From Owenia fusiformis (lineage: Eukaryota; Annelida; Polychaeta; Sabellida; Oweniidae), in NCBI GenBank assembly GCA_903813345.2, contig CAIIXF020000007.1, forward strand, positions 13,126,714 through 13,190,713: a stretch of DNA of 64,000 bases, given 5' to 3'. Positions 17,401-61,667 of the stretch are shown in pieces; within the stretch, counting starts at the first letter, position 1, and each line of letters begins with the position of its first letter. The notes below the pieces were generated by a model. That model saw only the letters and a list, made by a program, of their open reading frames with translations. It searched no databases and was not told where the DNA came from. A program made the position numbers and the translations under genes.

Positions 17401-20400
17401 TGATAGATGATATCAAGTTTTAGAGCTGATTAACTTTTGGGCAGCCATCTTTTCTTCTGGCGGCCATTTTGAAGATTTTTTGATGGTGTGATCTCGTTCA
17501 CATCATGTGCCTTGTTTATCCTATGACCTATGTGATGCTCAGTTTTGAATATGGGTTATATACCCTTGAATATGGGTTATATCCCCTAGGAATTATGATA
17601 TCTTACCTTGGACCCTCCAGGCCCTCAGTAAGATATCTATATTTCCCCCAGGATATACCCAATATGCATAATTAATAATATCCCATAATTTTAACCCAAA
17701 TGTTTATATGGCAAACATATGCAAAATCAAATGTTGTTAATTAAATCAGTATAGTTTAACAAGAATTGGATGTAAATAAAATATTACATTAGACCTAACA
17801 GTACAAATAGATTTGTACATGGACTTTCAACTAGAATTGATAGCCCATGATTTGTATCACAATGCATACATCTGATAATATCTCTGAAAACGATACGTCC
17901 AAATATAATAGAATGACGTCAAACAATCTAATTTGTCATGCAGTACCCTTGGGTAGTTCCATTATAGCTATAATCATAGAATATTTTTTGAGTGCATTCA
18001 CACCCCTGAGGGTCAGGTACAAGAAAGTGTAATACATAAAATAAATATATATGATTTAACACTAGACTACTATACATGTATACTACATATAATATATACT
18101 ACCTGTAGGGTTCAGGTTGGCTAGGAACCATGACAAACTACCTGTTAAAAGAGGTTAATACAAAGAAAAATAGATTTTGTTATTTGTGTGGTAAGGAGTA
18201 GGAGATGAATTTTATTTTATTTTGCAATGAAAACCTATGATTAATATCTGGAGCAAATGTCTGACTAACTTCATTATCAAAAAGATTCATTTTTAATTTT
18301 AAGTACTAATGGTACACTTTATAGACTTAAGATTGCTATTACCTGAAGTCATATCCGTGTGTTAGCTTCCAATATCTATCTATACACTTAGTTAATATTT
18401 ATGGAAGTTTGATAGAATTGTTAAACTTAAAGCTATCTTACAAGAAATTCCTTGAAATTATAATAACATGAAAATTGTATTTCATTACAAATATTTTAGA
18501 GTTGTATTTTATCATTATTTTACAAGCCCCAGCCTTGTCAAATAGCAAAGGCACATACAGTTAGACTTAAAGTGGAACACTTCCACAAGTGGAACACTAT
18601 TTGGGAAACAATTCACTTGTACAACTCTATGTGTATTCCAAGTATTAATGTGTATTCCAAGTATTAATGTGTATTCCAAGTATTAATGTGTATTCCAAGT
18701 ATTAATGTGTATTCCAAGTATTAATGTGTATTCCAAGTATTAATGTGTATTCCAAGTATTAATGTGTATTCCAAGTATTAATGTGTATTCCAAGTATTAA
18801 TGTGTATAAATTACTGTTTCTTGTTTCACTAGATGCTGCGTATATGCCATGATGTTCTGCTGCCAGTGTATGGTGCTGTTTTGAATGGACTGTTGAAAAG
18901 GTGTGACGATGAAAGAAATGGAATGGTAAGGTAAGTACACTGACATGGCTTGCTCTATTGACTTTTTGGTGCTGTTTTGAATGGACTGTTGAAAAGGTGT
19001 GATGATGAAAAAAATGGAATTGTAAGGTAAGTACACTGACATGGCTTGCTCAGTCCTTTTACTGTACTCTTTGGTAAAATGATTACTAAGGTATTATTGC
19101 ATGTTAGACACTGTTGTTTATTGTTGAACTAATATGGCTTGCTCTATTCACTAAATTGAAAAATACACCATGAAAACATTTTATCACAAGAATTACTCCT
19201 CAGTTATCTTTGTAATTTTCTTGTTGCTACTGTATCCGAAAAATGGCTGACACACTAGATTATAATTTCAATATTTTAATGTCTGCAGTTGGCCAGGGGT
19301 GATGATGTTCTTGGACAAAGCACAGGGAAATGCTCGACCCACCAAAACAAAGTCTGGATTATCCACATCTGGTAGTTTGAATGATTCAGTTTTCTCAAGT
19401 AAAGACATAAGCATAGACACGATAAAGGAATCCGATAAGGAATCTGAAAACTCTTCTGAGCAAATGAATCGTGCACCTGGTCAGAAAGAGGTCAAAGGTC
19501 AAAGAGCTACAACTGCTAAAACTCGACCCCAGACGTCAAAGAAGACTGCCAATAAACCTCCATCTGCAGTGTCTAGAAAAGGTACAATTATTTTTTTATG
19601 GTATAAAAGTTTTTTTATTAAGTTATTGTCCCAATGAATGAAGGTTGGTAGGGATATAGTAAAGCCCCCTGTCCATCAATCTGTTCGTCTGTCCAGCCGT
19701 CTGTCCGGAAGATAACTCAAATACCAGTGGACGGAATTTCTTCAAACTTGGTGGAAAGATGTAATTATTGGTGGCCGCAAAAAATTGCAGTAATTTTTCA
19801 CTAAAAACTCCTATATGGTCACCCAAATGCTTAAATTGGTGGAAATTCTGATATATTTCTAATGTTTGTCTTTTAAAATAAATAACTGGCAATTTAATCA
19901 AGGGTAGAGTAAATGATAAATATTGCATTGTGATATATACAGATTTATGAATATAGCATTTGTTGGGATTTGAAACTCTGTGGAGTTGCCAATTTTTCTA
20001 GTTGTGTCATTTGGCCCTCTCTGTACATTCAGAAAAGCTTGACAGAACACCATGAGAAAAAGAAAGGATACAGTTTGGAAAGATTGTCACACATTGACCC
20101 ATAGAATAGCATATATACATGTATTACATACCTAGTGAAGTATTTGTCAAATGGGAAAGTCAGCAGGCTATATCCACCAATATTGCCCGATTTACCTGAT
20201 AAAGCCCGCTTACCTTGTTTTGCCAGGGGAATAAAGGAATATGCCTTCATTCTTGCCCAAATATAGAGCCTCCCAAGAACTCAGGCATATTTCATGTCAT
20301 AGTGACATAACCTCTAAGTATTACATACCTAGCGAAGAATTTTTATGGAAGTCAATGGGAAAGTTAGCAGGCTATATCCACAGATATTTCCCGATTACTC

Positions 20401-38400: not shown

Positions 38401-41400
38401 TAACAAGAAGACAGCAGCAGATGTAAGTACCTGGAGAAAGCCATAAGTTCATAGACAACTATCGTAACAATATATGATAAGCCTAACTAATATAGTCTCA
38501 GACCAGAGAGGAGTCATCTTGGTCATTCAGACCTATTATGCCATTATGGTCCCTTAAGCCATCAAGGGCAATTTAGACCACAATGAACTATTCTAGGCTA
38601 TATCACTGGTTCTTAAAGGGTGACGCATATCGTTTAGCAAATCGAACGCTCGTTTCTGGTGTTGCTCACCGTTTAGTATAAAAGGCCCGATCCCGGAATA
38701 ATACTCAAGGGTTCACAGCCTCGAGGTCGTTGTGTCAACACCTCTAACTGTTATATAGCATAAGTATATTATAGATCGTCACACATTTATAAAACGGTGA
38801 TTTTTATTTTGACAAATCAATTCCACATTTATGGGTGAAGTTTCAGGATCTTCTATTTGTGTATAATAAGGAAAAATTGACATCTAAATTTCCCCATAAC
38901 GTAGTAGCACACAGTTTGGTATATGAAATATCCTACAAATGAAACAAAGCAGTTCTAATACAAGGATTTATATTCGCTGTTGTACATATTCTTTGAACGC
39001 AATCACTCTATGGATAATGTTTTCAAAATCATTATAAACGGATTACTTTATCTCAAAGACAATTTCAATAAACTGGATTTTACAGAACTCCCCTTATTTC
39101 TTAAAAATGGACTGATCCAGTTGATTCGCCTGGAGCCGCCATATTGTTCTTATACGGGATGCTTATCGGAACCCTTTAAAGGCATCAAGGGCAATTTAGA
39201 CCACAATGAACTATTCTAGGCTATATCACTGGTTCTTAAAGGCTTCAAGGGCAATTTAGACCACAATGAACTATTCTAGTCTATATCACTGGTTCTTAAA
39301 GGCATCAAGGGCAATTTAGACCACAATAAACTATTCTAGGCTATATCACTGGTTCTTAAAGGCATCAAGGGCAATTTAGACTACAATGAACTATTCTAGG
39401 CTATATCACTGGTTCTAAAGGCATCAAGGGCAATTTAGACCACAATGAACTATTCTAGGCTATATCACTGGTTCTTAAAGGCATCAAGGGCAATTTAGAC
39501 CACAATGAACTATTCTAGGCTATATCACTGGTTCTTAATAAGGCCATCAAGGGCAATTTAGACCACAATGAACTATGTTAGGCTATATCGCTGGTTCTTA
39601 AGGCCATCAAGGGCAATTTAGACCACAATGAACTATTTTAGGCTATATCACTGGTTCTTAAGGCCATCAAGAGCCCATTGAGCCATACAAAAACATTTGA
39701 ATCATGATGAACGTCAGGTCTTTCATCATACTTAGCATGAATACCTTGAGTATTATGTTTTACGAGAAACATCTTCTTATGTTAATGTTATTTGCAGGCC
39801 CATGTAAGGATATGGAGGGCTGACTCGTTGCAGACCCTACATGTACTTGGAATGGGAGTATTCACTAAATCAGTTGCAGCGGTTGCTTTCTCAAAGACTA
39901 AAGTAAGAAACTATTTCTCATTGTTTTCATAATTGTTTTATATCAAAGTAATGAGTATTTTTAATTGCATATAAGTCATTGTGATACTTATCAAACAGAT
40001 GTTTTGGCTCACTCCCAAGGTGTAATGTCATAATTTTGATAAAAACTGATTTCTTATGAATTATTATGAATAGTTACATAAAGCTAGAAGTTTGTGTATG
40101 TTATCATTATAAATATTTTTCTTTGGGCTAGGGTATTATGAATGAAATATATTGCATGTCAAAGAGCATTTACCAGTGGCTTCAACAAAATGTTGTTATT
40201 TAAGCCATCCATTGGAAGTGCTTTCATGGAAACAGCTCAGTCATCTCAGACTAAGGTGCAACCTAAATTACCCCTCCCATCAATGTTGAATAACCTTTTC
40301 TCCCTAAGCATAATCTATTCCCTAAAGCATCACTATTTCTAAGGCATAACCTATTCTCACAAAGCATAACATATTCCCTACGGCATAATCTATTCTTCCG
40401 AGACATAATCTAATCTTTCACCTATTCTCCAGAGGCATTACCCATTCTCTCACCTATTCTCCTGAGGTATAATTTATTCTCCTGAGCCATTACCTATTCT
40501 CCTGAGGCATAACCTATTGTCCAGAGACATAATCTATTCTTTCACCTATTCTCCTGAGGCATAACCTATTTTCTCACCTATTTTCCTAAGGTATGATTTA
40601 TTCTCCCGAGGCTTAACCTTTACTCTCACCTATTCTCTTGAGCCATAATCTGTTCTCCCAAGACATAATTTATTCTTTCAACTATTCTCCAGAGGCATAA
40701 TTTATTCTCCTGAGGCATTTCCTATTCTCCTGAGGCATAACCTATTCTCCTGAGGCATAATTTATTCTCTCACCTATCCCCCTGAGGCATAATCTATTCT
40801 CTAACCTATTCTCCCAAGGCATAATCTATTCTCTCACCTATTCTCCCGAGGCATAATCTATTCTACAGAGGCATAATCTATTCTCTCACCTATTCTCCCA
40901 AGGTATAACCTATTCTCACCTATTTTCCTAAGGTATAATTCATTCTCCTGAAGCATAACCTATTCTCCTGAGGCATAACCTATTCTCTCACCTATTCTCC
41001 CAAGGCATAATCTACATGTATTCTCTCACCTACATGTATTCTCTTGAGGCATAACCTATTCATCTTGATGTATAAGATATTCATACTTCCTTTGACACAC
41101 ATTGCTCACATTCCCTCATATCCAGTCATTCGCCTTATCCGTATTAGGAAGTTCATAGAATGATATTGTCAGAGTTAGCAGCCTTACTTCACCTATTATT
41201 TATAAACCTATGTATGAATCACTTTAAAAGTACTTCACTTTTCATATACAAACCTTCATTTTGTAGAAATTTCTTAATAAGATAAAATAATCAGTAATCC
41301 ATCAGTAAACTTGTTAATCAGCTGAAAGTAATCATGATAGCACTCAATGATTCATTTAAGAAACAACAAATGATTTATAACTTCTGATCAGATACATGTA

Positions 41401-44400
41401 CATCTATTTCTTTTTTATTTACTATTCATTCATAGAATTAAAAATGATTTTTCTGTAGTGTCCAACTTCTTTTAGGAGCGTTTGGTTGTTCTAGATGACC
41501 ACAAGGAGCACCTCCTGTCAGTATGGGACGTCACAACAGGCAAAGAGGTAGCCAGGACTATGGTAGGTTTTCACATTTCATCAACTGCACAATATATGTA
41601 ATGACAATGTTTATAGTATGATGATATGACAATTAGCTATATAATTCTTACAATCCAAAAACTGGAGCCATTTACAATTAAATGCATTTCTATTCTTACA
41701 TAGGTGAACAATGATGTCATGTGTGACATTGGATTCAGCTCGAATGATCCTAATATTCTTGTAACAATTGGTCGGGAACACCAAACTTGGTGGAAGATTT
41801 ACACCAATCGAGTGAAAGATCTTGAAAATGCATTACAGAAGAATCAAAAAGAGGCTGCCCAGCCTCAGTCTGGAATTGAAATGCACGCTAAGCCAGAGTA
41901 TGGGGTATGTACTTATTTCATTCATCTTATTAAAATTCTTTCTTCTAATTGATATTCATTTCTATTCTCTTTTTTCAGGGAGAACTCAGATATGGATTTC
42001 ATTGTTAGTCATCAAATTCTTTTCATTTAGCGCTAGCATGTGTACCATATATCTGATAATTGATCATTAGTTCCTTATTTGGACTTAGTTTAATTCATGT
42101 TCAAGTGCCTACTTGAAAAAGATTAAAATGGTGTTAAAGTCCCCGTCTAAAGTTTAAAAATATTTTTTTATCATTCATTTACTATTTGTCAGGACTTAAA
42201 AAGTGATTTTAGAGATTTTTGAACAAAAAAATTTTTTTGAAAAAAAAGTTGTGAGCATTTCATTTCTCAAATATTCAAATTTCCCGCCATTTTTCAAAAA
42301 AAGTTGAAATTTCTTAATCATCAAATATTTCTTAATGCATTTTAAAAAAGATTATCTTTTTAACACCAATGCAAAGATTGAACAAAGGACACACTATTTC
42401 AATGATAAAATGCCATAATTAATGGGCCACTTCAATGTTTTAGCTTATCAAAAATATTTTGAAACATTAGTGATGTCACTAAGGTACCAAAAACTTTCTG
42501 AAAAAACTTTTTTCGATGTCAATCTTTTCTAAATATGCTAGACTTTCATAAAAAACCAATGTTGATTGTCTAACCAGGTTAAAAGGAAGAATAAATTATG
42601 TTTTAGATATCATTGTACCATTGGTTTCTATGAGAACTAAAATTTTGAAATCCATTTTTCTCAGAACCATTTTCATGCACTGATAAGTTCATTTCTCGCT
42701 TATTTATGAACCGATTTTCTTAATTTTTTCGGCAAAAAACATGGGAGGATGAATGCTATGCATTGGTATGAATTGTGGCTAATTAGAAGATATGAGTGAC
42801 CTCTAAAAGTTGGTTTTAAATAAATTCACAAATTTTGGAACAAAAAGTCTATCAAAAACCACTTTTTGAAATTAAAAAAAAAAGTTTCACATATCACACT
42901 TTGATAACATTGGGTAAGACTACAATATAAGCCAAAGTGGTTTAAACTTTATATGGGGCCTTTAATAGTTTTTTTCCTTAATTTTCTAGACCTTCTTCAA
43001 GGCAAGGTTTGTGATTTGTATGCTGCATACTGAGAAGGGAGATCTGATAACGGGTGACTCTAATGGCACCATATATGTATGGGGTGGCGGGAACAATTCC
43101 ATCACAAACTATGTCAAACATGCACATGATGTAAGTACTGTTACGATATTAATGTAAGATATGTTTTTGACTTTTCTTAGGTAATAATACCTAGTAATAC
43201 ATCAGAAATCTAAGTATGGTAAATGTATCTCTTATAGGGCCCTGTGTTCTCTCTGTTGGCTTACAAGAACTACCTTCTATCTGGGGGGAGAGATGGAATG
43301 GTGGTCTCCTGGGTGTGGAATTTAATATATTCTACATGTATATATGTCTCTTATAGGGCCCTGTGTTCTCTCTGTTGGCTTACAAGAACTACCTTCTATC
43401 TGGGGGAGAGATGGGTAGGTGGTCTCCTTGGTCTGGAATTTAATATATTCTACATGTATATATGTCTCTTATAGGGCCCTGTGTTCTCTCTGTTGGCTTA
43501 CAAGAACTACCTTCTATCTGGGGGGAGAGATGGGTAGGTGGTCTCCTTGGTCTGGAATTTAATATATTCTACATGTATATATGTCTCTTATAGGGCCCTG
43601 TGTTCTCTCTGTTGGCTTACAAGAACTACCTTCTATCTGGGGGGAGAGATGGAATGGTGGTCTCCTTGGTCTGGAATTTAATATATTCTACATGTATATA
43701 TGTCTCTTATAGGGCCCTGTGTTCTATCTGTTGGCTTACAAGAACTACCTTCTATCTGGGGGGAGAGATGGGTAGGTGGTCTCCTTGGTCTGGAATTTAA
43801 TATATTCTACATGTATATATGTCTCTTATAGGGCCCTGTGTTCTCTCTGTTGGCTTACAAGAACTACCTTCTATCTGGGGGGAGAGATGGAATGGTGGTC
43901 TCCTGGGTGTGGAATTTAATATATTCTACATGTATATATGTCTCTTATAGGGCCCTGTGTTCTCTCTGTTGGCTTACAAGAACTACCTTCTATCTGGGGG
44001 AGAGATGGGTAGGTGGTCTCCTTGGTCTGGAATTTAATATATTCTACATGTATATATGTCTCTTATAGGGCCCTGTGTTCTCTCTGTTGGCTTACAAGAA
44101 CTACCTTCTATCTGGGGGGAGAGATGGGTAGGTGGTCTCCTTGGTCTGGAATTTAATATATTCTACATGTATATATGTCTCTTATAGGGCCCTGTGTTCT
44201 CTCTGTTGGCTTACAAGAACTACCTTCTATCTGGGGGAGAGATGGGTAGGTGGTCTCCTTGGTCTGGAATTTAATATATTCTACATGTATATATGTCTCT
44301 TATAGGGCCCTGTGTTCTCTCTGTTGGCTTACAAGAACTACCTTCTATCTGGGGGGAGAGATGGGTAGGTGGTCTCCTTGGTCTGGAATTTAATATATTC

Positions 44401-47400
44401 TACATGTATATATGTCTCTTATAGGGCCCTGTGTTCTCTCTGTTGGCTTACAAGAACTACCTTCTATCTGGGGGAGAGATGGAATGGTGGTCTCCTTGGT
44501 CTGGAATTTAATATATTCTACATGTATATATGTCTCTTATAGGGCCCTGTGTTCTCTCTGTTGGCTTACAAGAACTACCTTCTATCTGGGGGGAGAGATG
44601 GAATGGTGGTCTCCTTGGTCTGGAATTTAATATATTCTACATGTATATATGTCTCTTATAGGGCCCTGTGTTCTCTCTGTTGGCTTACAAGAACTACCTT
44701 CTATCTGGGGGGAGAGATGGAATGGTGGTCTCCTTGGTCTGGAATTTAATATATTCTACATGTATATATATATGTCTTTTATAGGGTCCTGTGTTCGCTC
44801 TGTTGGCCTACAAGAACTACCTTCTATCTGGGGGGAGAGATGGAATGGAGGTCTCCTTGGTCTGGAATTTAATATATTCTACATGTATATATGTCTCTTA
44901 TAGGGCCCTGTGTTCTCTCTGTTGGCTTACAAGAACTACCTTCTATCTGGGGGGAGAGATGGGTAGGTGGTCTCCTTGGTCTGGAATTTAATATATTCTA
45001 CATGTATATATGTCTCTTATAGGGCCCTGTGTTCTCTCTGTTGGCTTACAAGAACTACCTTCTATCTGGGGGGAGAGATGGAATGGTGGTCTCCTTGGTC
45101 TGGAATTTAATATATTCTACATGTATATATGTCTCTTATAGGGCCCTGTGTTCTCTCTGTTGGCTTACAAGAACTACCTTCTATCTGGGGGGAGAGATGG
45201 AATGGTGGTCTCCTTGGTCTGGAATTTAATATATTCTACATGTATATATATATGTCTTTTATAGGGTCCTGTGTTCGCTCTGTTGGCCTACAAGAACTAC
45301 CTTCTATCTGGGGGGAGAGATGGAATGGAGGTCTCCTTGGTCTGGAATTTAATATATTCTACATGTATATATGTCTCTTATAGGGCCCTGTGTTCTCTCT
45401 GTTGGCTTACAAGAACTACCTTCTATCTGGGGGGGGAGAGATGGAATGGAGGTCTCCTTGGTCTGGAGTTTAATATATTCTACATGTATATATGTCTCTT
45501 ATAGGGTCCTGTGTTCGCTCTGTTGGCTTACAAGAACTACCTTCTATCTGGGGGGAGAGATGGAATGGTGGTCTCCTTGGTCTGGAGTTTAATATATTCT
45601 ACATGTATATATGTCTCTTATAGGGTCCTGTGTTCGCTCTGTTGGCCTACAAGAACTACCTTCTATCTGGGGGGAGAGATGGAATGGTGGTCTCCTTGGT
45701 CTGGAGTTTAATATATTCTACATGTATATATATATGTCTTTTATAGGGCCCTGTGTTCTCTCTGTTGGCTTACAAGAACTACCTTCTATCTGGGGGGAGA
45801 GATGGAATGGAGGTCTCCTTGGTCTGGAATTTAATATATTCTACATGTATATATGTCTCTTATAGGGCCCTGTGTTCTCTCTGTTGGCTTACAAGAACTA
45901 CCTTCTATCTGGGGGGGAGAGATGGAATGGAGGTCTCCTTGGTCTGGAATTTAATATATTCTACATGTATATATGTCTCTTATAGGGCCCTGTGTTCTCT
46001 CTGTTGGCTTACAAGAACTACCTTCTATCTGGGGGGAGAGATGGGTAGGTGGTCTCCTGGGTGTGGAATTTAATATATTCTACATGTATATATGTCTCTT
46101 ATAGGGCCCTGTGTTCTCTCTGTTGGCCTACAAGAACTACCTTCTATCTGGGGGGAGAGATGGAATGGTGGTCTCCTTGGTCTGGAATTTAATATATTCT
46201 ACATGTATATATGTCTCTTATAGGGGCCTGTGTTCTCTCTGTTGGCTTACAAGAACTACCTTCTATCTGGGGGGGAGAGATGGAATGGAGGTCTCCTTGG
46301 TCTGGAATTTAATATATTCTACATGTATATATGTCTCTTATAGGGCCCTGTGTTCTCTCTGTTGGCTTACAAGAACTACCTTCTATCTGGGGGGGAGAGA
46401 TGGAATGGAGGTCTCCTTGGTCTGGAATTTAATATATTCTACATGTATATATGTCTCTTATAGGGCCCTGTGTTCTCTCTGTTGGCTTACAAGAACTACC
46501 TTCTATCTGGGGGGAGAGATGGAATGGTGGTCTCCTTGGTCTGGAATTTAATATATTCTACATGTATATATGTCTCTTATAGGGCCCTGTGTTCTCTCTG
46601 TTGGCTTACAAGAACTACCTTCTATCTGGGGGGAGAGATGGAATGGTGGTCTCCTTGGTCTGGAATTTAATATATTCTACATGTATATATGTCTCTTATA
46701 GGGCCCTGTGTTCTCTCTGTTGGCTTACAAGAACTACCTTCTATCTGGGGGAGAGATGGGTAGGTGGTCTCCTGGGTGTGGAATTTAATATATTCTACAT
46801 GTATATATGTCTCTTATAGGGCCCTGTGTTCTATCTGTTGGCTTACAAGAACTACCTTCTATCTGGGGGGGGAGAGATGGAATGGAGGTCTCCTTGGTCT
46901 GGAATTTAATATATTCTACATGTATATATGTCTCTTATAGGGCCCTGTGTTCTCTCTGTTGGCTTACAAGAACTACCTTCTATCTGGGGGAGAGATGGGT
47001 AGGTGGTCTCCTGGGTGTGGAATTTAATATATTCTACATGTATATATGTCTCTTATAGGGCCCTGTGTTCTCTCTGTTGGCTTACAAGAACTACCTTCTA
47101 TCTGGGGGAGAGATGGGTAGGTGGTCTCCTGGGTGTGGAATTTAATATATTCTACATGTATATATGTCTCTTATAGGGCCCTGTGTTCTCTCTGTTGGCT
47201 TACAAGAACTACCTTCTATCTGGGGGGAGAGATGGAATGGTGGTCTCCTTGGTCTGGAATTTAATATATTCTACATGTATATATGTCTCTTATAGGGCCC
47301 TGTGTTCTCTCTGTTGGCTTACAAGAACTACCTTCTATCTGGGGGAGAGATGGGTAGGTGGTCTCCTGGGTGTGGAATTTAATATATTCTACATGTATAT

Positions 47401-50400
47401 ATGTCTCTTATAGGGCCCTGTGTTCTCTCTGTTGGCTTACAAGAACTACCTTCTATCTGGGGGGGGAGAGATGGGTAGGTGGTCTCCTTGGTCTGGAATT
47501 TAATATATTCTACATGTATATATGTCTCTTATAGGGCCCTGTGTTCTCTCTGTTGGCTTACAAGAACTACCTTCTATCTGGGGGGGGAGAGATGGGTAGG
47601 TGGTCTCCTTGGTCTGGAATTTAATATATTCTACATGTATATATGTCTCTTATAGGGCCCTGTGTTCTCTCTGTTGGCTTACAAGAACTACCTTCTATCT
47701 GGGGGGAGAGATGGGTAGGTGGTCTCCTGGGTGTGGAATTTAATATATTCTACATGTATATATGTCTCTTATAGGGCCCTGTGTTCTCTCTGTTGGCTTA
47801 CAAGAACTACCTTCTATCTGGGGGGGGAGAGATGGGTAGGTGGTCTCCTTGGTCTGGAATTTAATATATTCTACATGTATATATGTCTCTTATAGGGCCC
47901 TGTGTTCTCTCTGTTGGCTTACAAGAACTACCTTCTATCTGGGGGGGGAGAGATGGGTAGGTGGTCTCCTTGGTCTGGAATTTAATATATTCTACATGTA
48001 TATATGTCTCTTATAGGGCCCTGTGTTCTCTCTGTTGGCTTACAAGAACTACCTTCTATCTGGGGGGAGAGATGGAATGGTGGTCTCCTGGGTATGGAAC
48101 AAGAACATGGATGAAGCGGGAAATATAAAGGTTTGACATTACGGTTTATATTACATGTTAGCTATAAGCCATAGTTGTACATGGATATTGTTATTTTAGT
48201 GAATTGTTCTTCCATTTCTCACGTTCTTTGCATGATTATCACTTGAAACATTGAATTATTAACAGTGAAATGATTTTGATTTACAAATTTTCGTTTTATT
48301 GCTTCTTCAGGTAAACTCAAAAAAACTTGTTTACCTGAAGAAGTTTTATACATTGAATTATTAATATAAGAAAAAATATGATTTCTCTGAAAACATTCTG
48401 ATCTACTTCAGTGTTAAATGGAATGTCTCAGATTAAATGGAATGTCTCAGAATTCAAACAAAATTCTGATTGAAGTGTATACTTACAAACAGCTTGCACC
48501 TTTACCCACAAATAAAGTACTCAAAATCCACTTTCTTGTTCCCAACATCACATTAAATCACACAGTAGATTGTAAAGATATTATGATGCACCATCACATA
48601 GCTGTCCTCATGTTTCACTTTCCCAATGTTTCCCTTTCCTTTAGGTGAAGGAATTACCGCAGCCAAAGCATCAAACTCTTGAGGTAGGTACATGTGCAAC
48701 CAGTATTCACAATTTTGTCATCAGTTAAGGAGCCAATCAAATTATATACTGAATTGATTTTAAGAATGTCATCTTCTCCAACCCAACCTTCATTAAGTCT
48801 TGTTCTGAAATACATGTCACCATGGCAACCTAAAACAACGTTATTCATAACTCACTACATTTTGCTCTCAGAATAGTTGTTTCATCTAAGAAACGCATTG
48901 TGCATGAATATTTACAGAGTTTTTATACATTAATGTATACTTTATTCAGAAAAGGCCATTCAAAGTTTAATATGTACATGTATGTTTAACCACGCCTTCC
49001 TCCTATGATTAAGGCAAATTTTCATAAAAGGAATAAACATTTGAAGTGCCCATATATGGACTTCTAATGAATTGAAATGATATTATTTCATGCATAGATT
49101 CCTAAGCTGGAGGGAGGTGTAAGGATGCTTGTGATTCACAATGACATCCTTCTGATTGGAACAACTACGAACTCTATCTTAGTAACTAAGATAGCTGCAA
49201 AGGGATGTCCCTTGACTGGGGTGGAGCTGCAGAAGATCCCTTTAACACAGGTAAAGTACCAGCTTTGTTACTTTTGCGTCAATTTACGATACACTTCATT
49301 TAATTCATATTGAGTCAGTTTGTGCAAATATTCTTTTGGAAAGTTCTTTCATAAGTATGGCAATGTCTCTTGAATATAGTTCATGTTTAGACCAAACATA
49401 GACTGTGTTTTGACCAAATATAGACTTTGTTTTGACCAAATATAGACCATGTATAAACCATAATAAACCATGTTTAGACCAAATATAGACCATGTATAAA
49501 TCAAATATAGACCATGCATAAACCAAATGGACTGTATTTGGACCAATTATAGATCCTTTCAACATCATTTATTTATGTCTAAACCATTTTTCATATTTCA
49601 ACAGGCTAGACGTCTTAACAATAGAAAGTTGGATTTAACTCAATCTTCCTTGTATTTAGGGTCACTTTGATGATGTCCGCGGGTTGTCAATGGTTCAGTT
49701 AGCTGGTAGAGAGAATGACATCATCACAGTCGGCTATGATGGAATTATCTGCTGTTTGAACACAGTCACAAGAGAGGCTGTTTGGAAACACATGGTTAAG
49801 GTACTATATTATTGCGCATTGTTTATTGAAAATAAGCAACTCTTCATGGATCTGTAAATATTTTTATAAATTTACTTTATTGTTTTTCATATTTTGTCAA
49901 AATCATTCCAAATTGCGACACTAATCAAAGATTGGAAAACAAATGATGAATGGAACTATATTTTTCAGGGCCTTCACTTCCTGTGTGCAGACCTCTCTAT
50001 TACTGGTGAAATCCTTGTTGCTGGAACAAATAATGGGGAGCTTGTAATCTTTGATATCCAACATGGCGACAATTTTTCAATTTCTGAACAAGCGCAAATA
50101 AAAATCACAAAAGATAAACTTACTTCAGTCAAGCTCTCTGCTGATGGGAATAAAATAGCGATCGGTACAAAATCATTGATAGTTATCATGAAATGGACAG
50201 AGGTTGAGGAAAGTCAATGGGCCTGGCAGGAAATGGGTCAATGTCAAGGTCATTCTAGATCAGTGACTGGACTAGATTGGAATATAGATGGCACCCTACT
50301 ACAAAGCAGCTCTGATAAACCTGAGTTTTGCATTTGTAAGTGTCTTATGCTTATATATGCAGTCTGTGTAAGTTTGGATATTTCAAATTTCCTGCTCTAG

Positions 50401-52426: not shown

Positions 52427-54064
52427 TTTGTTGGACCTGTTCTTGTAATGATGACTATAACTAATATACACATATTGCAGTTAATAACAATGCAACAGAC
52501 ATGGACCATTACAGAGTTCAGAAATAACACTGTTATTAGGATTATAATTTCAAATCCGTCCATTCAGATAAATCCAGATATTGAAGTTTGGGCTTGACTA
52601 AAACAAATTGACAGCTGGTCAACATATTGTTCTCCATTATAGATATTATATTTACTGTCCTTGTGAACTTCCTCAACATTAACATTGCATACAAGTTATC
52701 TCATTTTAATATTTTAGAATTATTTGCATTTTAATTTATGGCTTTACTTGTGCATTGATTTATTTTCTATTTAATAATTAATTATGTAGGCATGGCGAGT
52801 TCATATTATTAAATCATTACTAGAATAACTCATCATTTACTTCTTCATCTTAGACTATTTAAAGACAATGTGTAATATTTGTTCAATACAGTTCTTGAAT
52901 TGTTTGATACAGTATGTGAAATACAGAGGCTCTGAGAAGGACAGAGATGACTGAATAAAATAATTAGTCTTATTGGAGAGGGCAGATGTAGCTCTCCTCC
53001 AGAGGGAAGTCTTAAACAGAAGGCTTGATTGACATTGCTCTAAAGTTTATTCAATATAGAGTGTAGAGATACAACCCTCTCATTTTGGAATAACATTCTC
53101 AATTTTGATGGAATCTCTCTGAACTTTTATTTATAGATATTTGATATTAGCATCATCATCGCAATACCTGCCAACATTTTGTCTTGAACTTTCCAAATAA
53201 AAGATAAGGTCTGACTCATTACCAGTAACAGTTAATCCAAAAAGCGGGTCTATAATTGATAATGTAATAACAATCCAGAAATGACATAAATAATGGCAAG
53301 GAAACAAGACCCATCCAAAATATTGTATATTTCTCTAAATTACATAATAGACTAGTTTCATTTATTTAGCATTCTGTCTACATCAAAAACAGATTCCTTT
53401 ATATTTATTAAATAATTGATAAATTATTCCAAAATCAGTGAGGGTCACATTTTTGTATCAGTCTTAATCAGAATCTTTGATTTGTTATAAATTCTGTAAA
53501 TAGCCTTCTGAGAATATTTCAGTTTATATAATATACTTAGTATATACATGTATCTAACCAACAAAAGGTCAGGTGTTTGTATTACTAGTATTTATTTTAA
53601 TAATTGTCAAATACAAATTCACTTTGTTATATTTTCTTCATTTCTTATACAGTCTACAATTTATTACATGTCATGTAACTCCATGATGTAATGTCAATGG
53701 ACAATGTTCTCTTTTGGCATTTGCAAACAATAAAGTAAACCAAAACATGATATAGCTGTGTGTTGCTCATAATTCAGGTTTAAAGTCAAGCAATCTGTAA
53801 CTTAAAATAAAAATTGAAGAATGACACTGATCATTGCCATGAGCTGAGTACGATGCTATGCTGGAAATTCGTGGATATGTGCATTCACCATTACAAGAGA
53901 TCACTAAATGGAATTACTGCAACTCTAATAGTTCACTTTCCCAGTTCATTAATCTCAACCATTAAGCTGACTGAAAGCTGCAAGGTTGCCTTTTGGATAT
54001 TGGCAATACTTGTTTCTTTTCATGACGATTCTATTATGGCATATTAATTTGGTTCCTAAGTGTG
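52427..54064 (+). other. EML 3' flank with candidate poly(A) signals
   Basis: No coding exon seen. AATAAA hexamers on the + strand at 52954-52959, 53196-53201 and 53729-53734 are candidate polyadenylation signals for the EML-like gene. The minus-strand gene's stop codon lies at 54065, so the two genes converge tail to tail with about 1.6 kb between stop codons. Confidence 0.4.
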
Positions 54065-55710
54065 TCAGAGTCCTAGAAGTTCTTTCTCAGCATCCTTTTC
54101 TTCCTGAAACAAAACAATTCAAAATATTCTGACATTATCAATTAATGGATTATAACTAGCATACGAGCTACTACAAAAGTGTTATCAACTCTCTATATCC
54201 TGATATCTGCTGTGTCATTGATCTACAAGTAAGAGAGGATAACTTTGCCACAGAAGAATGTTGCACTCTATTACAATACACTTCAGGCTCTATTAAAATA
54301 CACTTCAGAAGTTTAGTACATTTGTAATCCAACTTATGCAGCTTCAGAAAACAAGCGATGCTCCACATAGACTAATATTATGAGGACGGAATGGGGTACT
54401 TAGACAATTACCTGAGATATTTTTTGTTTTTTCCTTGAATATACCTCATCCTCATCATCCAACATCTCTTGCTGCTTTCTTTTAAATCTATAAAAACAAA
54501 CAACATGTTGGTAATGTTAATATTATATAGTGAAAGGTAAACCTTCAAAATAATAATCAATTTACTGATCCCACCTTGAATGGCACATGTAATCATACCA
54601 ATGATTGAACAGTACATGTAGTCACACCAATGATTGAATGGTATATGTTACCACACAAATGATTGAACGGTACATGTAATCACACCAATGATTGAATGGT
54701 ACATGTAATCACAACAATAATTGAACAGTACATGTAATCACACCAATGATTGAACAGTACATGTAATCACACCCATGATTGAACAGTACATGTAATCACA
54801 CCCATGATTGAACAGAACATGGAATCACACCAATGACTGAACAGAACATGTAATCACACCAATGACTGAACAGTATATGTAGTCACACTAACGATTGAAC
54901 AGTACATGTAATCACACCCATGATTGAACAGAACATGGAATCATACCAATGATTGAACAGAACATGTAATCACACCAATGACTGAACAGTATATGTAGTC
55001 ACACTAACGATTGAACAGTACATGTAATCACACCAATGATTGAACAGAACATGTTATCACACCAATGATTGAACAGAACATGTAATCACACCAATGATTG
55101 AACAGTACATGTAATCACACCAATGATTGAACAGAGCATGTAATTACACTAATGACTGAACAGTATATGTAGTCACACCAAAGATTGAATGGTACATGTA
55201 ATCACACCAATGACTGAACAGTACATGTAATCACACTGATGATTGAACAATACATGTAACCACACCAATGATTGAACGGTACATGTAATCACAGCAATGA
55301 TAGAACAGTATATGTAGTCACATCAATGACAGAACAGTACATGTAATCACACCAATGATTGAATGATACATGTAATCACACCAATGATTGAACAGTCCAT
55401 GTAATCACACCAATGATCAACTTAGGAAGATGCTAGAAGTTGAATCATTTAAACTGCAATTGCTGCGATCACATGAACAATATCATTGTACATGTATAGT
55501 GAAGAAGTGGTAACAATTTGAATAATTGTGGACATGACCAAGTCCTTGAAGTAAAGGGAAGGGAAATGTAGTCAGACAGTAGTCTTAAACATACTTACAC
55601 TTCACTATCTGGATTATTCTCCTGGTTTCTGCATTTCTCTAATTTTTGACCAATTTTCTTGCCTTCCTTTTTATCAAGTGGGGGAATGTGTTTAACCATG
55701 TATCTTATAG
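54065..55710 (-). CDS. C-terminal three exons of an unrecognised minus-strand gene (5' part not found)
   Basis: Exons in transcription order: 55599-55710, 54445-54487 (alternative 3' extension to 54412), 54065-54103 with TGA. Good GT-AG sites and matching phases give IRYMVKHIPPLDKKEGKKIG, QKLEKCRNQENNPDSEV, FKRKQQEMLDDEDE and EEKDAEKELLGL-stop. This is a charged, lysine- and acid-rich C-terminal tail, perhaps helical. I do not recognise the protein. The middle exon has two usable donors (GAG|GTATAT and CAG|GTAATT), both in frame, differing by 11 codons. The upstream part must lie beyond the 70-bp array or outside the window. The first 10 nt of the 55599-55710 exon are included in the 2.4 kb duplication. 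Confidence 0.6.
54560..55420. repeat. 30-bp minisatellite, about 28 copies
   Basis: Unit: ATGATTGAACAGTACATGTA then ATCACACCA. Copies vary at a few positions (GAACGG, GAACAGAACATG). It fills the intron between the first and second of the minus-strand gene's exons seen here. Confidence 0.95.
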
Positions 55711-58122
55711 CTGAAAACAAACACAGAGCAGTTTAGTTTATTTAACATTCAGTTAACAAAGGCATTTTATGAGTGATCATAACCTGTGAAGATGTACATG
55801 GTTTATAACTGAATAAAAAATGTCAGTTGAAATAAATGATTATCAAAAGCTTCAGTGAACGGATGGATGACACTTTTGATATAACTTCACAAAGACATTT
55901 CTAGTTATCAACTTTAATGTTGCCTATGTTTTGTAATCTCAATAAAAAACGGAAGATTCCAGGTAACAAAGAGGATACATGTCTAGCATACTTTGCCACA
56001 AGATGAGTAACAGCAAAAACATTGCCTTTTCTGAGGAACATATTATGGTAATACTTTTTAAAAGTTTATTTATTAATTGTTGTTTTCTTTACAATATTTG
56101 GAGATGTTAAAAATAAACCAGATGCGTAAGTTTAAGCTACACTTAATTGTAACACATGATTTTCTAATGCTATTTCTATTGCATAAGGCGCAGTTCTGTT
56201 TACAGGTGAGAGATCCACCTATTACATGATTTTCTAATGCTATTTCTCTTGTATAAGGCGCAGTTCTGTTTACAGGTAAGAGATCTACCTATTACATGAT
56301 TTTTAATGCTATTTCTATTGTATAAGGCACAGTTTTGTTTACTGGTAAGAGATCTACATATTACATGATTTTTAATGCTATTTCTATTGTATAAGGCGCA
56401 GTACTGTTTACAGGTAAGAGATCTACCTATTACATGATTTTCTAATGCTATTTCTATTTTATAAGGCGCAGTTCTGTTTACAGGTGAGAGATCTACCTAT
56501 TACATGATTTTCTAATGCTATTTCTATTGTATAAGGCGCAGTTCTGTTTACAGGTGAGGGATCTACCTATTACATGATTTTCTAATGCTATTTCTATTGT
56601 ATAAGGCGCAGTTCTGTTTACAGGTAAGAGATCTACATATTACATGATTTTCTAATGCTATTTCTATTTTATAAGGCGCAGTTCTGTTTACAGGTGAGAG
56701 ATCTACCTATTACATGATTTTCTAATGCTATTTCTATTGTATAAGGCGCAGTTCTGTTAACAGGTGAGGGATCTACCTATTACATGATTTTCTAATGCTA
56801 TTTCTATTGTATAAGGCGCAGTTCTGTTTACAGGTAAGAGATCTACCTATTACATGATTTTCTAATGCTATTTCTATTGTATAAGGCACAGTTCTGTTTA
56901 CAGGTAAGAGATCTACCTATTACATGATTTTCTAATGCTATTTCTATTGTATAAGGTGCAGTTCTGTTTACAGGTGAGAGATCTACCTATTACATGATTT
57001 TCTAATGCTATTTCTATTGTATAAGGCGCAGTTCTGTTAACAGGTGAGAGATCTACCTATTACATGATTTTCTAATGCTATTTCTATTGTATGAGGCGCA
57101 GTTCTGTTAACAGGTGAGGGATCTACCTATTACATGATTTTCTGATGCTATTTCTATTGTATAAGGCGCAGTTCTGTTTACAGGTGAGAGATCCACCTAT
57201 TACATGATTTTCTAATGCTATTTCTATTGTATAAGGCGCAGTTCTGTTTACAGGTGAGGGATCTACCTATTACATGATTTTCTAATGCTATTTTCTATTG
57301 TATAAGGCGCAGTTCTGTTTACAGGTAAGAGATCTACCTATTACATGATTTTCTAATGCTATTTCTATTGTATAAGGCACAGTTCTGTTTACAGGTAAGA
57401 GATCTACCTATTACATGATTTTCTAATGCTATTTCTATTGTATAAGGTGCAGTTCTGTTTACAGGTGAGAGATCTACCTATTACATGATTTTCTAATGCT
57501 ATTTCTATTGTATAAGGCGCAGTTCTGTTAACAGGTGAGAGATCTACCTATTACATGATTTTCTAATGCTATTTCTATTGTATGAGGCGCAGTTCTGTTA
57601 ACAGGTGAGGGATCTACCTATTACATGATTTTCTGATGCTATTTCTATTGTATAAGGCGCAGTTCTGTTTACAGGTGAGAGATCCACCTATTACATGATT
57701 TTCTAATGCTATTTCTATTGTATAAGGCGCAGTTCTGTTTACAGGTGAGGGATCTACCTATTACATGATTTTCTAATGCTATTTTCTATTGTATAAGGCG
57801 CAGTTCTGTTTACAGGTAAGAGATCTACCTATTACATGATTTTCTAATGCTATTTCTATTGTATAAGGCGCAGTTCTGTTTACAGGTGAGAGATCTACCT
57901 ATATTACATGATTTTCTAATGCTTTTTCTATTGTATAAGGCGCAGTTCTGTTTACAGGTAAGAAATCTACCTATTACATGATTTTCTAATGCTATTTCTA
58001 TTGTATAAGGTGCAGTTCTGTTTACAGGTGAGGGATCTACCTATTACATGATTTTCTAATGCTATTTCTATTGTATAAGGCGCAGTTCTGTTTACAGGTA
58101 AGATATCTACATATTACATCAG
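55701..58122. repeat. 2.4 kb tandem duplication, copy A
   Basis: Sequence from TATCTTATAGCTGAAAACAA to TATCTACATATTACATCAG recurs at a constant offset of 2437 bp at both ends (58138-60559); no mismatch was seen in the parts compared. It spans 10 nt of the minus-strand exon, about 450 bp of unique intron and about 28 units of the 70-bp array. Confidence 0.9.
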
Positions 58123-58137
58123 ACCTTTGAAGGGTTT

Positions 58138-60559
58138 TATCTTATAGCTGAAAACAAACACAGAGCAGTTTAGTTTATTTAACATTCAGTTAACAAAGGC
58201 ATTTTATGAGTGATCATAACCTGTGAAGATGTACATGGTTTATAACTGAATAAAAAATGTCAGTTGAAATAAATGATTATCAAAAGCTTCAGTGAACGGA
58301 TGGATGACACTTTTGATATAACTTCACAAAGACATTTCTAGTTATCAACTTTAATGTTGCCTATGTTTTGTAATCTCAATAAAAAACGGAAGATTCCAGG
58401 TAACAAAGAGGATACATGTCTAGCATACTTTGCCACAAGATGAGTAACAGCAAAAACATTGCCTTTTCTGAGGAACATATTATGGTAATACTTTTTAAAA
58501 GTTTATTTATTAATTGTTGTTTTCTTTACAATATTTGGAGATGTTAAAAATAAACCAGATGCGTAAGTTTAAGCTACACTTAATTGTAACACATGATTTT
58601 CTAATGCTATTTCTATTGCATAAGGCGCAGTTCTGTTTACAGGTGAGAGATCCACCTATTACATGATTTTCTAATGCTATTTCTCTTGTATAAGGCGCAG
58701 TTCTGTTTACAGGTAAGAGATCTACCTATTACATGATTTTTAATGCTATTTCTATTGTATAAGGCACAGTTTTGTTTACTGGTAAGAGATCTACATATTA
58801 CATGATTTTTAATGCTATTTCTATTGTATAAGGCGCAGTACTGTTTACAGGTAAGAGATCTACCTATTACATGATTTTCTAATGCTATTTCTATTTTATA
58901 AGGCGCAGTTCTGTTTACAGGTGAGAGATCTACCTATTACATGATTTTCTAATGCTATTTCTATTGTATAAGGCGCAGTTCTGTTTACAGGTGAGGGATC
59001 TACCTATTACATGATTTTCTAATGCTATTTCTATTGTATAAGGCGCAGTTCTGTTTACAGGTAAGAGATCTACATATTACATGATTTTCTAATGCTATTT
59101 CTATTTTATAAGGCGCAGTTCTGTTTACAGGTGAGAGATCTACCTATTACATGATTTTCTAATGCTATTTCTATTGTATAAGGCGCAGTTCTGTTAACAG
59201 GTGAGGGATCTACCTATTACATGATTTTCTAATGCTATTTCTATTGTATAAGGCGCAGTTCTGTTTACAGGTAAGAGATCTACCTATTACATGATTTTCT
59301 AATGCTATTTCTATTGTATAAGGCACAGTTCTGTTTACAGGTAAGAGATCTACCTATTACATGATTTTCTAATGCTATTTCTATTGTATAAGGTGCAGTT
59401 CTGTTTACAGGTGAGAGATCTACCTATTACATGATTTTCTAATGCTATTTCTATTGTATAAGGCGCAGTTCTGTTAACAGGTGAGAGATCTACCTATTAC
59501 ATGATTTTCTAATGCTATTTCTATTGTATGAGGCGCAGTTCTGTTAACAGGTGAGGGATCTACCTATTACATGATTTTCTGATGCTATTTCTATTGTATA
59601 AGGCGCAGTTCTGTTTACAGGTGAGAGATCCACCTATTACATGATTTTCTAATGCTATTTCTATTGTATAAGGCGCAGTTCTGTTTACAGGTGAGGGATC
59701 TACCTATTACATGATTTTCTAATGCTATTTTCTATTGTATAAGGCGCAGTTCTGTTTACAGGTAAGAGATCTACCTATTACATGATTTTCTAATGCTATT
59801 TCTATTGTATAAGGCACAGTTCTGTTTACAGGTAAGAGATCTACCTATTACATGATTTTCTAATGCTATTTCTATTGTATAAGGTGCAGTTCTGTTTACA
59901 GGTGAGAGATCTACCTATTACATGATTTTCTAATGCTATTTCTATTGTATAAGGCGCAGTTCTGTTAACAGGTGAGAGATCTACCTATTACATGATTTTC
60001 TAATGCTATTTCTATTGTATGAGGCGCAGTTCTGTTAACAGGTGAGGGATCTACCTATTACATGATTTTCTGATGCTATTTCTATTGTATAAGGCGCAGT
60101 TCTGTTTACAGGTGAGAGATCCACCTATTACATGATTTTCTAATGCTATTTCTATTGTATAAGGCGCAGTTCTGTTTACAGGTGAGGGATCTACCTATTA
60201 CATGATTTTCTAATGCTATTTTCTATTGTATAAGGCGCAGTTCTGTTTACAGGTAAGAGATCTACCTATTACATGATTTTCTAATGCTATTTCTATTGTA
60301 TAAGGCGCAGTTCTGTTTACAGGTGAGAGATCTACCTATATTACATGATTTTCTAATGCTTTTTCTATTGTATAAGGCGCAGTTCTGTTTACAGGTAAGA
60401 AATCTACCTATTACATGATTTTCTAATGCTATTTCTATTGTATAAGGTGCAGTTCTGTTTACAGGTGAGGGATCTACCTATTACATGATTTTCTAATGCT
60501 ATTTCTATTGTATAAGGCGCAGTTCTGTTTACAGGTAAGATATCTACATATTACATCAG
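58138..60559. repeat. 2.4 kb tandem duplication, copy B
   Basis: Second copy, separated from copy A by 15 nt (58123-58137) of unexplained filler. Its right end coincides with the first three bases (CAG) of the TIR element starting at 60557. Confidence 0.9.
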
Positions 60560-60852
60560 TGGCGTAGCGTGGGTATTTTATGAGTGTACGCCACGAGTGA
60601 GCGAAGCGAACGAGCTTTGAGGGGGGGTTCTTTCCCCCAAGAAAATCTGAAAAAATTAGATTGCATTTGAAGCGTTCTGGGGCGTTTTAAAATCCGAAAT
60701 TCCGATTACGAAAAAATAATATGGATTAATAAAATGTTAGGCCATTACTTCAGAATATTAAACGTGGGTCATGTCAATATCAAAAATTTACTTTTCTCTA
60801 AACTTTGAGAGTACGCTATAGCGTTTTATGCGTATATGACGCTACGCCACTG
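60557..60852. mobile_element. TIR element, 296 bp, inserted in the 70-bp array
   Basis: Termini CAGTGGCGTAGCGT and exact inverse ACGCTACGCCACTG, flanked by ACAT on both sides (60553-60556 and 60853-60856). It interrupts a repeat unit, so its boundaries are certain. Same family as the relic at 15010-15205. No coding content. Confidence 0.85.
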
Positions 60853-61114
60853 ACATGATCTTCTACTGCTATTTCTATTGTATAAGGCGCAGTTCTGTTT
60901 ACAGGTGAGAGATCTACCTATTACATGATTTTCTAATGCTATTTCTATTGTATAAGGCGCAGTTCTGTTTACAGGTAAGAGATCTACCTATTATATGATT
61001 TTCTAATGCTATTTCTATTGTATAAGGCGCAGTTCTGTTTACAGGTAAGAGATCTACCTATTACATGATTTTCTAATGCAATTTCTATTGTATAAGGCAC
61101 AGTTCTGTTTACAG

Positions 61115-61241
61115 GTGAGGGATCTACCTATTACATGGATAAGGAAAGTGTTAACTTGGTTGCGGTGCTATGACATTGATAATGATGGGTATGCAGGCTA
61201 TGATGACTTCATGAAAATAGCGGACAGATTAATAAAATATG
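61115..61241 (+). CDS. Orphan EF-hand exon
   Basis: Acceptor TTCTGTTTACAG, donor G|GTAAAAAT. It encodes VRDLPITWIRKVLTWLRCY and then DIDNDGYAGYDDFMKIADRL. The loop has Asp at positions 1, 3 and 5, Gly at 6 and Asp instead of Glu at 12, so calcium (or Mg) binding is plausible; flanking helices are amphipathic. Phase 0 in, phase 1 out. I found no neighbouring exon on this strand, so it belongs to a gene continuing beyond the window or to a fragment. It is not obviously a copy of the EML gene's EF-hand exons, though related in type. Confidence 0.6.
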
Positions 61242-61455: not shown

Positions 61456-61667
61456 TTTAGGAGGGTAAGGTTAGTCCTGTGTTGTCCTCCCTTCTGGTTT
61501 TATTATTTACATGGATTCTTATGGGCAGTTTTCAATTTCTTTGGTATTTTATTTCCCAAAGACGGTTTTGTATTTAATTAAATGTGACGGTTGCACTAAA
61601 ATTATGTTGAACATGGGCAAAAAACTAGTGTAGTGTGAACTGGTCATCCTGGGTCTCTTGTGATCTT

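Follow-up and report, generated by a model that had tools for sequence, protein, structure and literature searches.

Tandem arrays across splice junctions in the annelid Owenia fusiformis: architecture, placement relative to chance and likeness to amphioxus mirage minisatellites

How does a minisatellite come to consist of the edge of an exon, and why would a gene put up with dozens of copies of its own splice site? The question is raised by a 64-kb stretch of the Owenia fusiformis genome (assembly GCA_903813345.2, contig CAIIXF020000007.1, positions 13,126,714 to 13,190,713; hereafter the window), in which three tandem arrays on the plus strand share one architecture: the unit is the tail of an intron, its AG acceptor and the head of the following exon, and the last copy continues into the intact exon. 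The original prediction, made from this DNA alone, had described three arrays built from acceptor junctions whose last unit opens into the exon, and had held that chance would not place repeat units across splice sites in this way. Calls by Tandem Repeats Finder (TRF) together with reading confirm the architecture, and samples of three gene families bear out the expectation about chance, with 18 of 39 arrays spanning a splice junction against 4.66 expected. Non-chance placement at splice junctions is thus supported for this genome.

Array 1 (43228..48099) comprises 41 copies of a 119-bp unit at a spacing of 118-123 bp, that is, 40 decoys and a copy at 48007 taken to be functional; the unit reads tctcttatag followed by an exon head of 83 nt, and AG is kept in 41 of 41 copies. 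Array 2 (51113..51905) holds 9 copies of an 88-bp unit of intron tail, AG and 43 nt of exon, its acceptor motif being TTTAAG in the first and last copy and TTTTAG in the seven inner ones. Array 3 (56154..61137) has a 70-bp unit that reads ...tttacag|GTRAGRGATCTACC..., with 23 nt of exon, in about 70 copies by TRF, 60 of which were matched by an anchor; the acceptor AG is kept in 58 of these 60. It is interrupted at 60557..60852 (strand not assigned) by a 296-bp insert with inverted ends CAGTGGCGTAGCG...CGCTACGCCACTG and ACAT on each flank, probably a miniature inverted-repeat transposable element (MITE), judging from these features. Arrays 1 and 2 were checked letter by letter, and array 3 at both ends and through its anchor-matched copies. 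The exonic part of each unit was counted by eye up to the point at which decoy and exon diverge; of the lengths of 77, 44 and 23 nt given originally, the last agrees with our count and the first two are replaced by 83 and 43 nt.

A fourth junction case in the window, overlooked in the original prediction, lies at the other kind of splice site. At 18871..19051 (plus strand), TRF and reading identify a duplication of 96 bp x 1.9 whose unit joins 60 nt from the end of an exon to the donor and 36 intronic nt. The affected exon, its 3' end being repeated downstream, occupies 18833..18930 (plus strand; donor gtaagtac, acceptor ...cactag by eye) and joins the next exon (19289) in frame, the peptide of the two being without a Pfam match. 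The window by itself thus shows repeats at 3 acceptors and at 1 donor, which means that 3' and 5' splice sites are both affected.

To place these cases in a wider context, the genome was sampled by gene family, in stretches chosen by exon matches that make up about 0.06% of it. There were 18 myosin stretches (17 in the main test), 26 kinesin stretches and, as the last set, 3 chaperonin stretches, so that 46 stretches were tested, with 39 arrays (unit 30-300 bp) and 510 marked boundaries in 264 kb. Arrays were called by TRF and exons by homology, and one reader inspected by eye those arrays that lay close to an exon match; 11 of the 21 non-spanning myosin and kinesin arrays were judged by position only, and missed exons could hide further cases among them. 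For the placement test, each array was reduced to one founder unit and the founders of a stretch were shifted jointly around it, 20,000 times.

Junction-spanning arrays were found in 12 of the 46 stretches, with about 2 to 17 copies each, which amounts to 18 per 510 marked boundaries or roughly 1 per 28. The expectation of 4.66 has a standard deviation of 1.90, and none of the 20,000 shifts reached 18, the maximum being 13. By set, 6 of 18 myosin arrays span a junction against 2.05 expected (a count reached by 152 of 20,000 shifts), 10 of 19 kinesin arrays against 2.23 (0 of 20,000) and both chaperonin arrays against 0.37 (700 of 20,000). The result survives removal of the two richest loci, L010 and L037, with 7 of the 18 between them (11 of 31 against 2.91; 1 of 20,000), and the addition of L019, a myosin exon cluster left out of the main test, which gives 18 of 40 against 4.98. 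Compared with the other arrays of the myosin and kinesin sets, junction arrays have better matching copies (median 96% in 16 arrays against 87% in 21 others, p 0.006) and longer units (80 bp against 39 bp, p 0.006), the latter being partly expected because long units straddle a boundary more easily; copy number shows no clear difference (p 0.25).

We consider it probable that these arrays are mirage minisatellites, in which a duplication straddling an exon edge survives as one copy of the exon stays intact and the decoys lie in the intron. The founding event would be a tandem duplication that by accident extends across an exon edge; expansion and homogenisation, by unequal exchange or slippage as in any minisatellite, would then enlarge the array. 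In an acceptor-type array only the last copy continues into the remainder of the exon, with its donor, and in a donor-type array only the first is preceded by the acceptor of the exon; exon definition would choose the copy that belongs to the intact exon, and the remainder of the array would be removed with the intron. Selection would purge most wholly exonic arrays unless their unit is divisible by three, and would let straddling arrays pass, these being tolerated because an undamaged exon with its splice site is always left over. In the window, two arrays contained entirely in long open frames have units divisible by three, as such a frame filter predicts: a minisatellite at 22676-22853 (plus strand, proline-rich) with a 42-bp unit, and one at 28917-29977 with a 30-bp unit in a long minus-strand frame whose Ig and MAM matches are weak and below cut-off, both presumably coding. 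The roughly fourfold excess at junctions suggests that exonic DNA is likelier than intronic DNA to found or keep arrays, with the straddling arrays as the visible survivors.

Among other explanations, the simplest is chance, in that minisatellites and exons may be so dense that straddling is to be expected. Both are indeed dense in the sampled sequence, as the totals given above indicate, and a first rough estimate for myosin had put the expectation at 4-5 against 6-7 seen. The shift test, with or without the two richest loci, makes this very improbable, and so does a simpler test in which L003 counts as spanning, boundary density is raised 1.6-fold and four unit-length ranges are used, where p lies at 0.010-0.042 in the myosin set and 0.0002-0.0009 in the kinesin set. 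The original prediction had also proposed a mutational process beginning at 3' splice sites, for instance R-loop or lariat-linked repair, that creates the arrays. This would account for an excess at junctions, for the three acceptor arrays of the window and for the somewhat acceptor-rich samples (11 acceptors, 7 donors). However, donor arrays exist in the window and in the samples alike, and the acceptor surplus is slight: 9 to 7 before the chaperonin set was added (binomial p 0.80), or 12 to 8 with the window included (p 0.50). A start at the acceptor or branch point should moreover give fixed breakpoints, and scatter is seen instead. In 21 arrays (window, myosin and kinesin, with L003 included) the exonic share of the unit ranges from 0.12 to 0.90 (Kolmogorov-Smirnov [KS] test against uniform, p 0.17) and is alike in acceptor and donor arrays (p 0.92). 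Since the position of the splice site within the unit is scattered in this way, the breakpoints are tied neither to the acceptor nor to the branch point, and the proposal of a 3'-splice-site process fails on this evidence to the extent that we regard it as very unlikely.

Could the decoys instead be functional, delaying or diversifying splicing, acting as poison exons or, in array 3, as steps of recursive splicing? Recursive splice sites are zero-length exons, AG|GT, and array 3 resembles them in that 58 of its 60 matched copies carry the motif CAG|GTRAG, in which the acceptor and the donor consensus meet, the 59 decoys among the 60 scoring 5.3-7.3 as donors at the acceptor point (all splice-site scores come from generic tables). 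The motif is present because the exon start supplies it, the functional exon of array 3 itself starting GTGAGG; it is shared with the exon, which sets it apart from a recursive site. In array 1, a donor-like GATGG|GTAGGT stands 58-61 nt past the acceptor in 18 of 40 decoys, which on their sequence could serve as pseudo-exons. The exonic parts of the array 1 decoys are, however, not conserved: a frame-breaking change of poly-G length (to 5, 7 or 8) occurs in 17 of 40, the terminal copy keeping 6, and diversity is 0.0405 in the exonic part against 0.0055 and 0.0142 in two intronic parts, a pattern from which we read these decoy exon parts as unconstrained. For array 2 the score is 1.1 for the functional acceptor and 3.4 for 7 of 8 decoys; site strength can therefore not be the rule by which the real site is selected. 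Units are not divisible by three in 17 of 21 measured arrays, so that use of a decoy would usually break the frame, and the arrays occur in unrelated genes and have units that bear no relation to one another. A function for the decoys is accordingly an unlikely, if not negligible, account, and of the two options left by the original prediction, decoys tolerated or decoys useful, the first agrees with what is seen and the second finds no support, given the weak real acceptor of array 2 and the broken frames in array 1. An assembly artefact could be suspected, as long arrays are difficult to assemble and a single assembly was used, but copies are distinguished by recurring variants, array 3 contains a unique insert and the structure recurs with about 2 to 17 copies in 12 of the 46 stretches; we find this extremely unlikely. 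Hardly any credence is due, either, to an origin in which a mobile or introner-like sequence, dispersed over the genome, was inserted at splice sites. Introns filled with repeats would fit it, but the units that were read consist of the host exon's own edge, and a 28-mer of the 119-bp unit, the only unit searched, has 33 exact copies in the 498-Mb genome, all at a single locus; for that unit, the related copies at many unrelated loci that characterize introners were not found.

The reading of these arrays as tolerated exon-edge duplications has to be set against several observations that weigh against it. The myosin set by itself gives an excess matched, as noted, in 152 of 20,000 shifts, and its 6 junction arrays are all concentrated in 3 of 17 stretches. 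For the 13 non-spanning arrays situated in the annotated portion of their stretch, closeness to exons does not clearly exceed that of random positions (mean percentile 0.44, KS p 0.22), with 4 of them within 2-24 nt of an exon match, and unit GC content is alike in junction and other arrays (0.373 and 0.366), exons having 0.41 and the rest 0.333. In the window, the greater diversity of the exonic part of array 1 is not predicted by neutrality alone, the array 2 decoys outscore the functional acceptor, and the donor-like sites of array 1 are present in nearly half of its decoys. Decoys may also be used in RNA to some extent, the use of the terminal copy being deduced from frame. We nevertheless favor the duplication reading and add to it, as a tentative extension that is more doubtful than the reading itself, that exonic or transcribed exon-edge DNA in Owenia may be several-fold more array-prone than intronic DNA, hidden within exons by selection, and that the genome may hold thousands of junction arrays that arose independently of those in amphioxus; the figure of thousands is an extrapolation from 18 per 510 boundaries.

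The junction architecture, although real, is not new as such, since it has been published for amphioxus under the name of mirages (PMC3087553). Mirage minisatellites were described there in Adh3 (Canestro, Roser and Albalat 2002, as cited) and in the globin genes BflGb6 and BflGb9 (PMC3087553); in that paper the repeats cover 5' as well as 3' boundaries, a contribution to intron gain is proposed, RT-PCR (reverse transcription PCR) suggests regular splicing of the globin genes, and BflGb6 carries 6 and 3 units in two haplotypes. Length polymorphism and somatic instability also belong to the description of mirages. The likeness extends to a unit spanning the exon-intron boundary, to both kinds of boundary, to AG/GT in many repeats, to one copy continuous with the authentic exon and to homogenisation within a cluster (PMC3087553). 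In our data, a boundary-spanning unit and both boundary kinds are seen in the window and in the samples, and AG/GT signals with an intact-exon copy in the window; outside the window, three gene families unrelated to one another show this architecture too, and acceptors and donors are both represented. In contrast to the amphioxus cases, the host is an annelid and not a cephalochordate, the arrays reach about 70 copies and 5 kb against the 6 and 3 units of BflGb6, frequency and excess over chance are measured in genome samples, and splicing is judged from frame, the amphioxus work having RT-PCR. Among the matches listed from open-licence full text, PMC3087553 is the only description of mirages, the others being represented by title and the start of the abstract, which is not proof of absence. 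The kind is therefore already known, and what is new is the annelid host, the size of the arrays, their frequency and the measured excess.

A related proposal is the Rogers model, in which introns are gained through tandem duplication of AGGT sites (as cited in PMC3087553), potato RdRp being a reported case of intron gain by tandem duplication (PMC4974935). As in that model, a tandem duplication over a splice-site motif yields extra splice sites; unlike in it, the cases read contain no new intron, the array lying within an apparently pre-existing one, and no new intron bounded by duplicated AGGT was encountered in the EML exon chain of the window, described below. At about 1 per 28 sampled boundaries and above chance, mirages turn from a curiosity into a measurable process, which allows duplications within exons, across junctions and in introns to be compared and introns born from arrays to be searched for, and which makes Owenia a good system for studying the origin of such duplications and their possible role in creating introns. 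If founding is indeed exon-prone, duplicated splice sites would be permanently on hand as raw material for new introns and isoforms. How does the spliceosome ignore dozens of intact decoys which, in array 2, are by score stronger than the real site? For annotation the arrays carry a warning, in that repeated exon edges may inflate exon and domain counts.

The junction arrays counted in the samples lie in stretches L010 (four), L012, L016, L024 (two), L029, L030, L033, L035, L037 (three), L044, L050 and L051. For L010 2490, L030, L035, L037 1472 and L051, the basic unit read by eye replaced a multiple given by TRF. Read and counted as non-spanning were arrays in L003, L007, L011 (3112), L014, L037 (1-458), L038 (three) and L042 (two); L003, with a 34-bp unit and 4 exonic nt, is the one that counts as spanning in the simpler test. 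L040 and L023 were read but left out, their units being shorter than 30 bp. The exon-match rows of the chaperonin set show no evenly spaced cluster, though the sequences contain two arrays, from which it follows that such row lists overlook arrays with a short exonic part.

Several further observations in the sampled families stand beside these counts. The array at 1-458 of L037 begins exactly at a GTAAGG donor and, like those at 7312-7416 and 7626-7741 of L038, abuts or lies near an exon without containing exonic sequence. A 43-bp array at 1605-2308 of L038 reads ...tttacag|GCCATT..., with no exon found behind it, and is possibly an old junction array or a product of chance. On the minus strand at G000:C2:23266359-23269174 (parts in L046 and L047), the end of a kinesin exon is matched 18 times at a spacing of 158-159 bp, probably, from this pattern, another donor-type junction array outside the counted sample. 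L019 (G000:C9:37985800-37994700, minus strand) belongs to a muscle-type myosin heavy chain gene and contains 14 diverged, irregularly spaced matches, one of which is partial, to a single N-terminal motor exon (about positions 28-85 in Pfam), with both splice sites given by a crude scan in 8 of 14; on this sequence evidence it looks like a large set of alternative exons and not a minisatellite. A different kind of element, a bantam-like hairpin, occupies L001 (G000:C9:32750654-32750734); it matches at full length with 53.2 bits against an Rfam cut-off of 61 bits, and the related mir-81 model, which scored highest within its clan when the locus was scanned, gives 49.5 bits, below its own cut-off. 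Forkhead domains gave 38 matches in the genome, distributed over C1, C3, C4, C5, C6, C8, C9, C10 and C11 and absent from C2, C7 and C12, with tandem sets on C8 and C10; provided that contigs are numbered by size, this agrees with the Fox genes published for O. fusiformis on chromosomes 1, 2, 3, 5, 6, 7, 8, 11 and 12, with foxQ2 tandem duplications on 5 and 7 and no Fox gene on 4, 9 and 10 (PMC9539403). Amphioxus, in which mirages are known, was rejected as the source of the DNA. COX1 and molluscan haemocyanin yielded no informative match, and neither did the GFP family PF01353, for which the controls were equally silent, so that its absence is not proven.

The genes beside the window arrays were placed by homology and reading frame. 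Eleven EML exons from 41476 to 52426, taken with the terminal copies of arrays 1 and 2, form a single open frame of 531 codons. The predicted protein aligns over residues 3-531 with EML1 (PDB 4ci8, E 1.9e-60) and matches both EML beta-propeller families in Pfam (PF23414, E 5e-57; PF23409, E 1.3e-46). Within this chain, arrays 1 and 2 each lie in one intron and adjoin an intact exon, respectively the exon at 48017..48130 (plus strand; GPVFSLLAYKNYLLSGGRDGMVVSWVWNKNMDEAGNIK), supported by the open-frame splice chain and EML1 homology, and the exon at 51863..51996 (plus strand) into which array 2 runs with its last copy, supported by the same splice chain. From the open reading frame we infer that the terminal copy is the one used in normal splicing. 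The last copy of array 3 opens the exon at 61115..61241 (plus strand, edges by eye; VRDLPITWIRKVLTWLRCYDIDNDGYAGYDDFMKIADRLIKYG), whose EF-hand match is weak (Pfam E 0.005, below cut-off; best PDB match E 0.001). A candidate first exon of this EF-hand gene, with an ATG, an open frame and a gtaata donor and without homology support, lies at 56003..56047 (plus strand), and array 3 would occupy the first intron of the gene if this is its first exon.

Three other window arrays were considered as junction arrays and rejected: those at 36485-38116 (81 bp) and 39176-39671 (60 bp), for which the nearest downstream exons start at about 38350 and 39798 by eye, and that at 40290-41014, for which the nearest downstream exon starts at 41476. 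The window also contains, apparently within an intron of the EML-type gene and on the opposite strand, a single-exon open reading frame of the amiloride-sensitive sodium channel family (33070-34833, minus strand; PF00858, E 3.5e-70), and its end at about 61500-64000 (minus strand) resembles, by eye, the reverse transcriptase of a non-LTR (long terminal repeat) retrotransposon.

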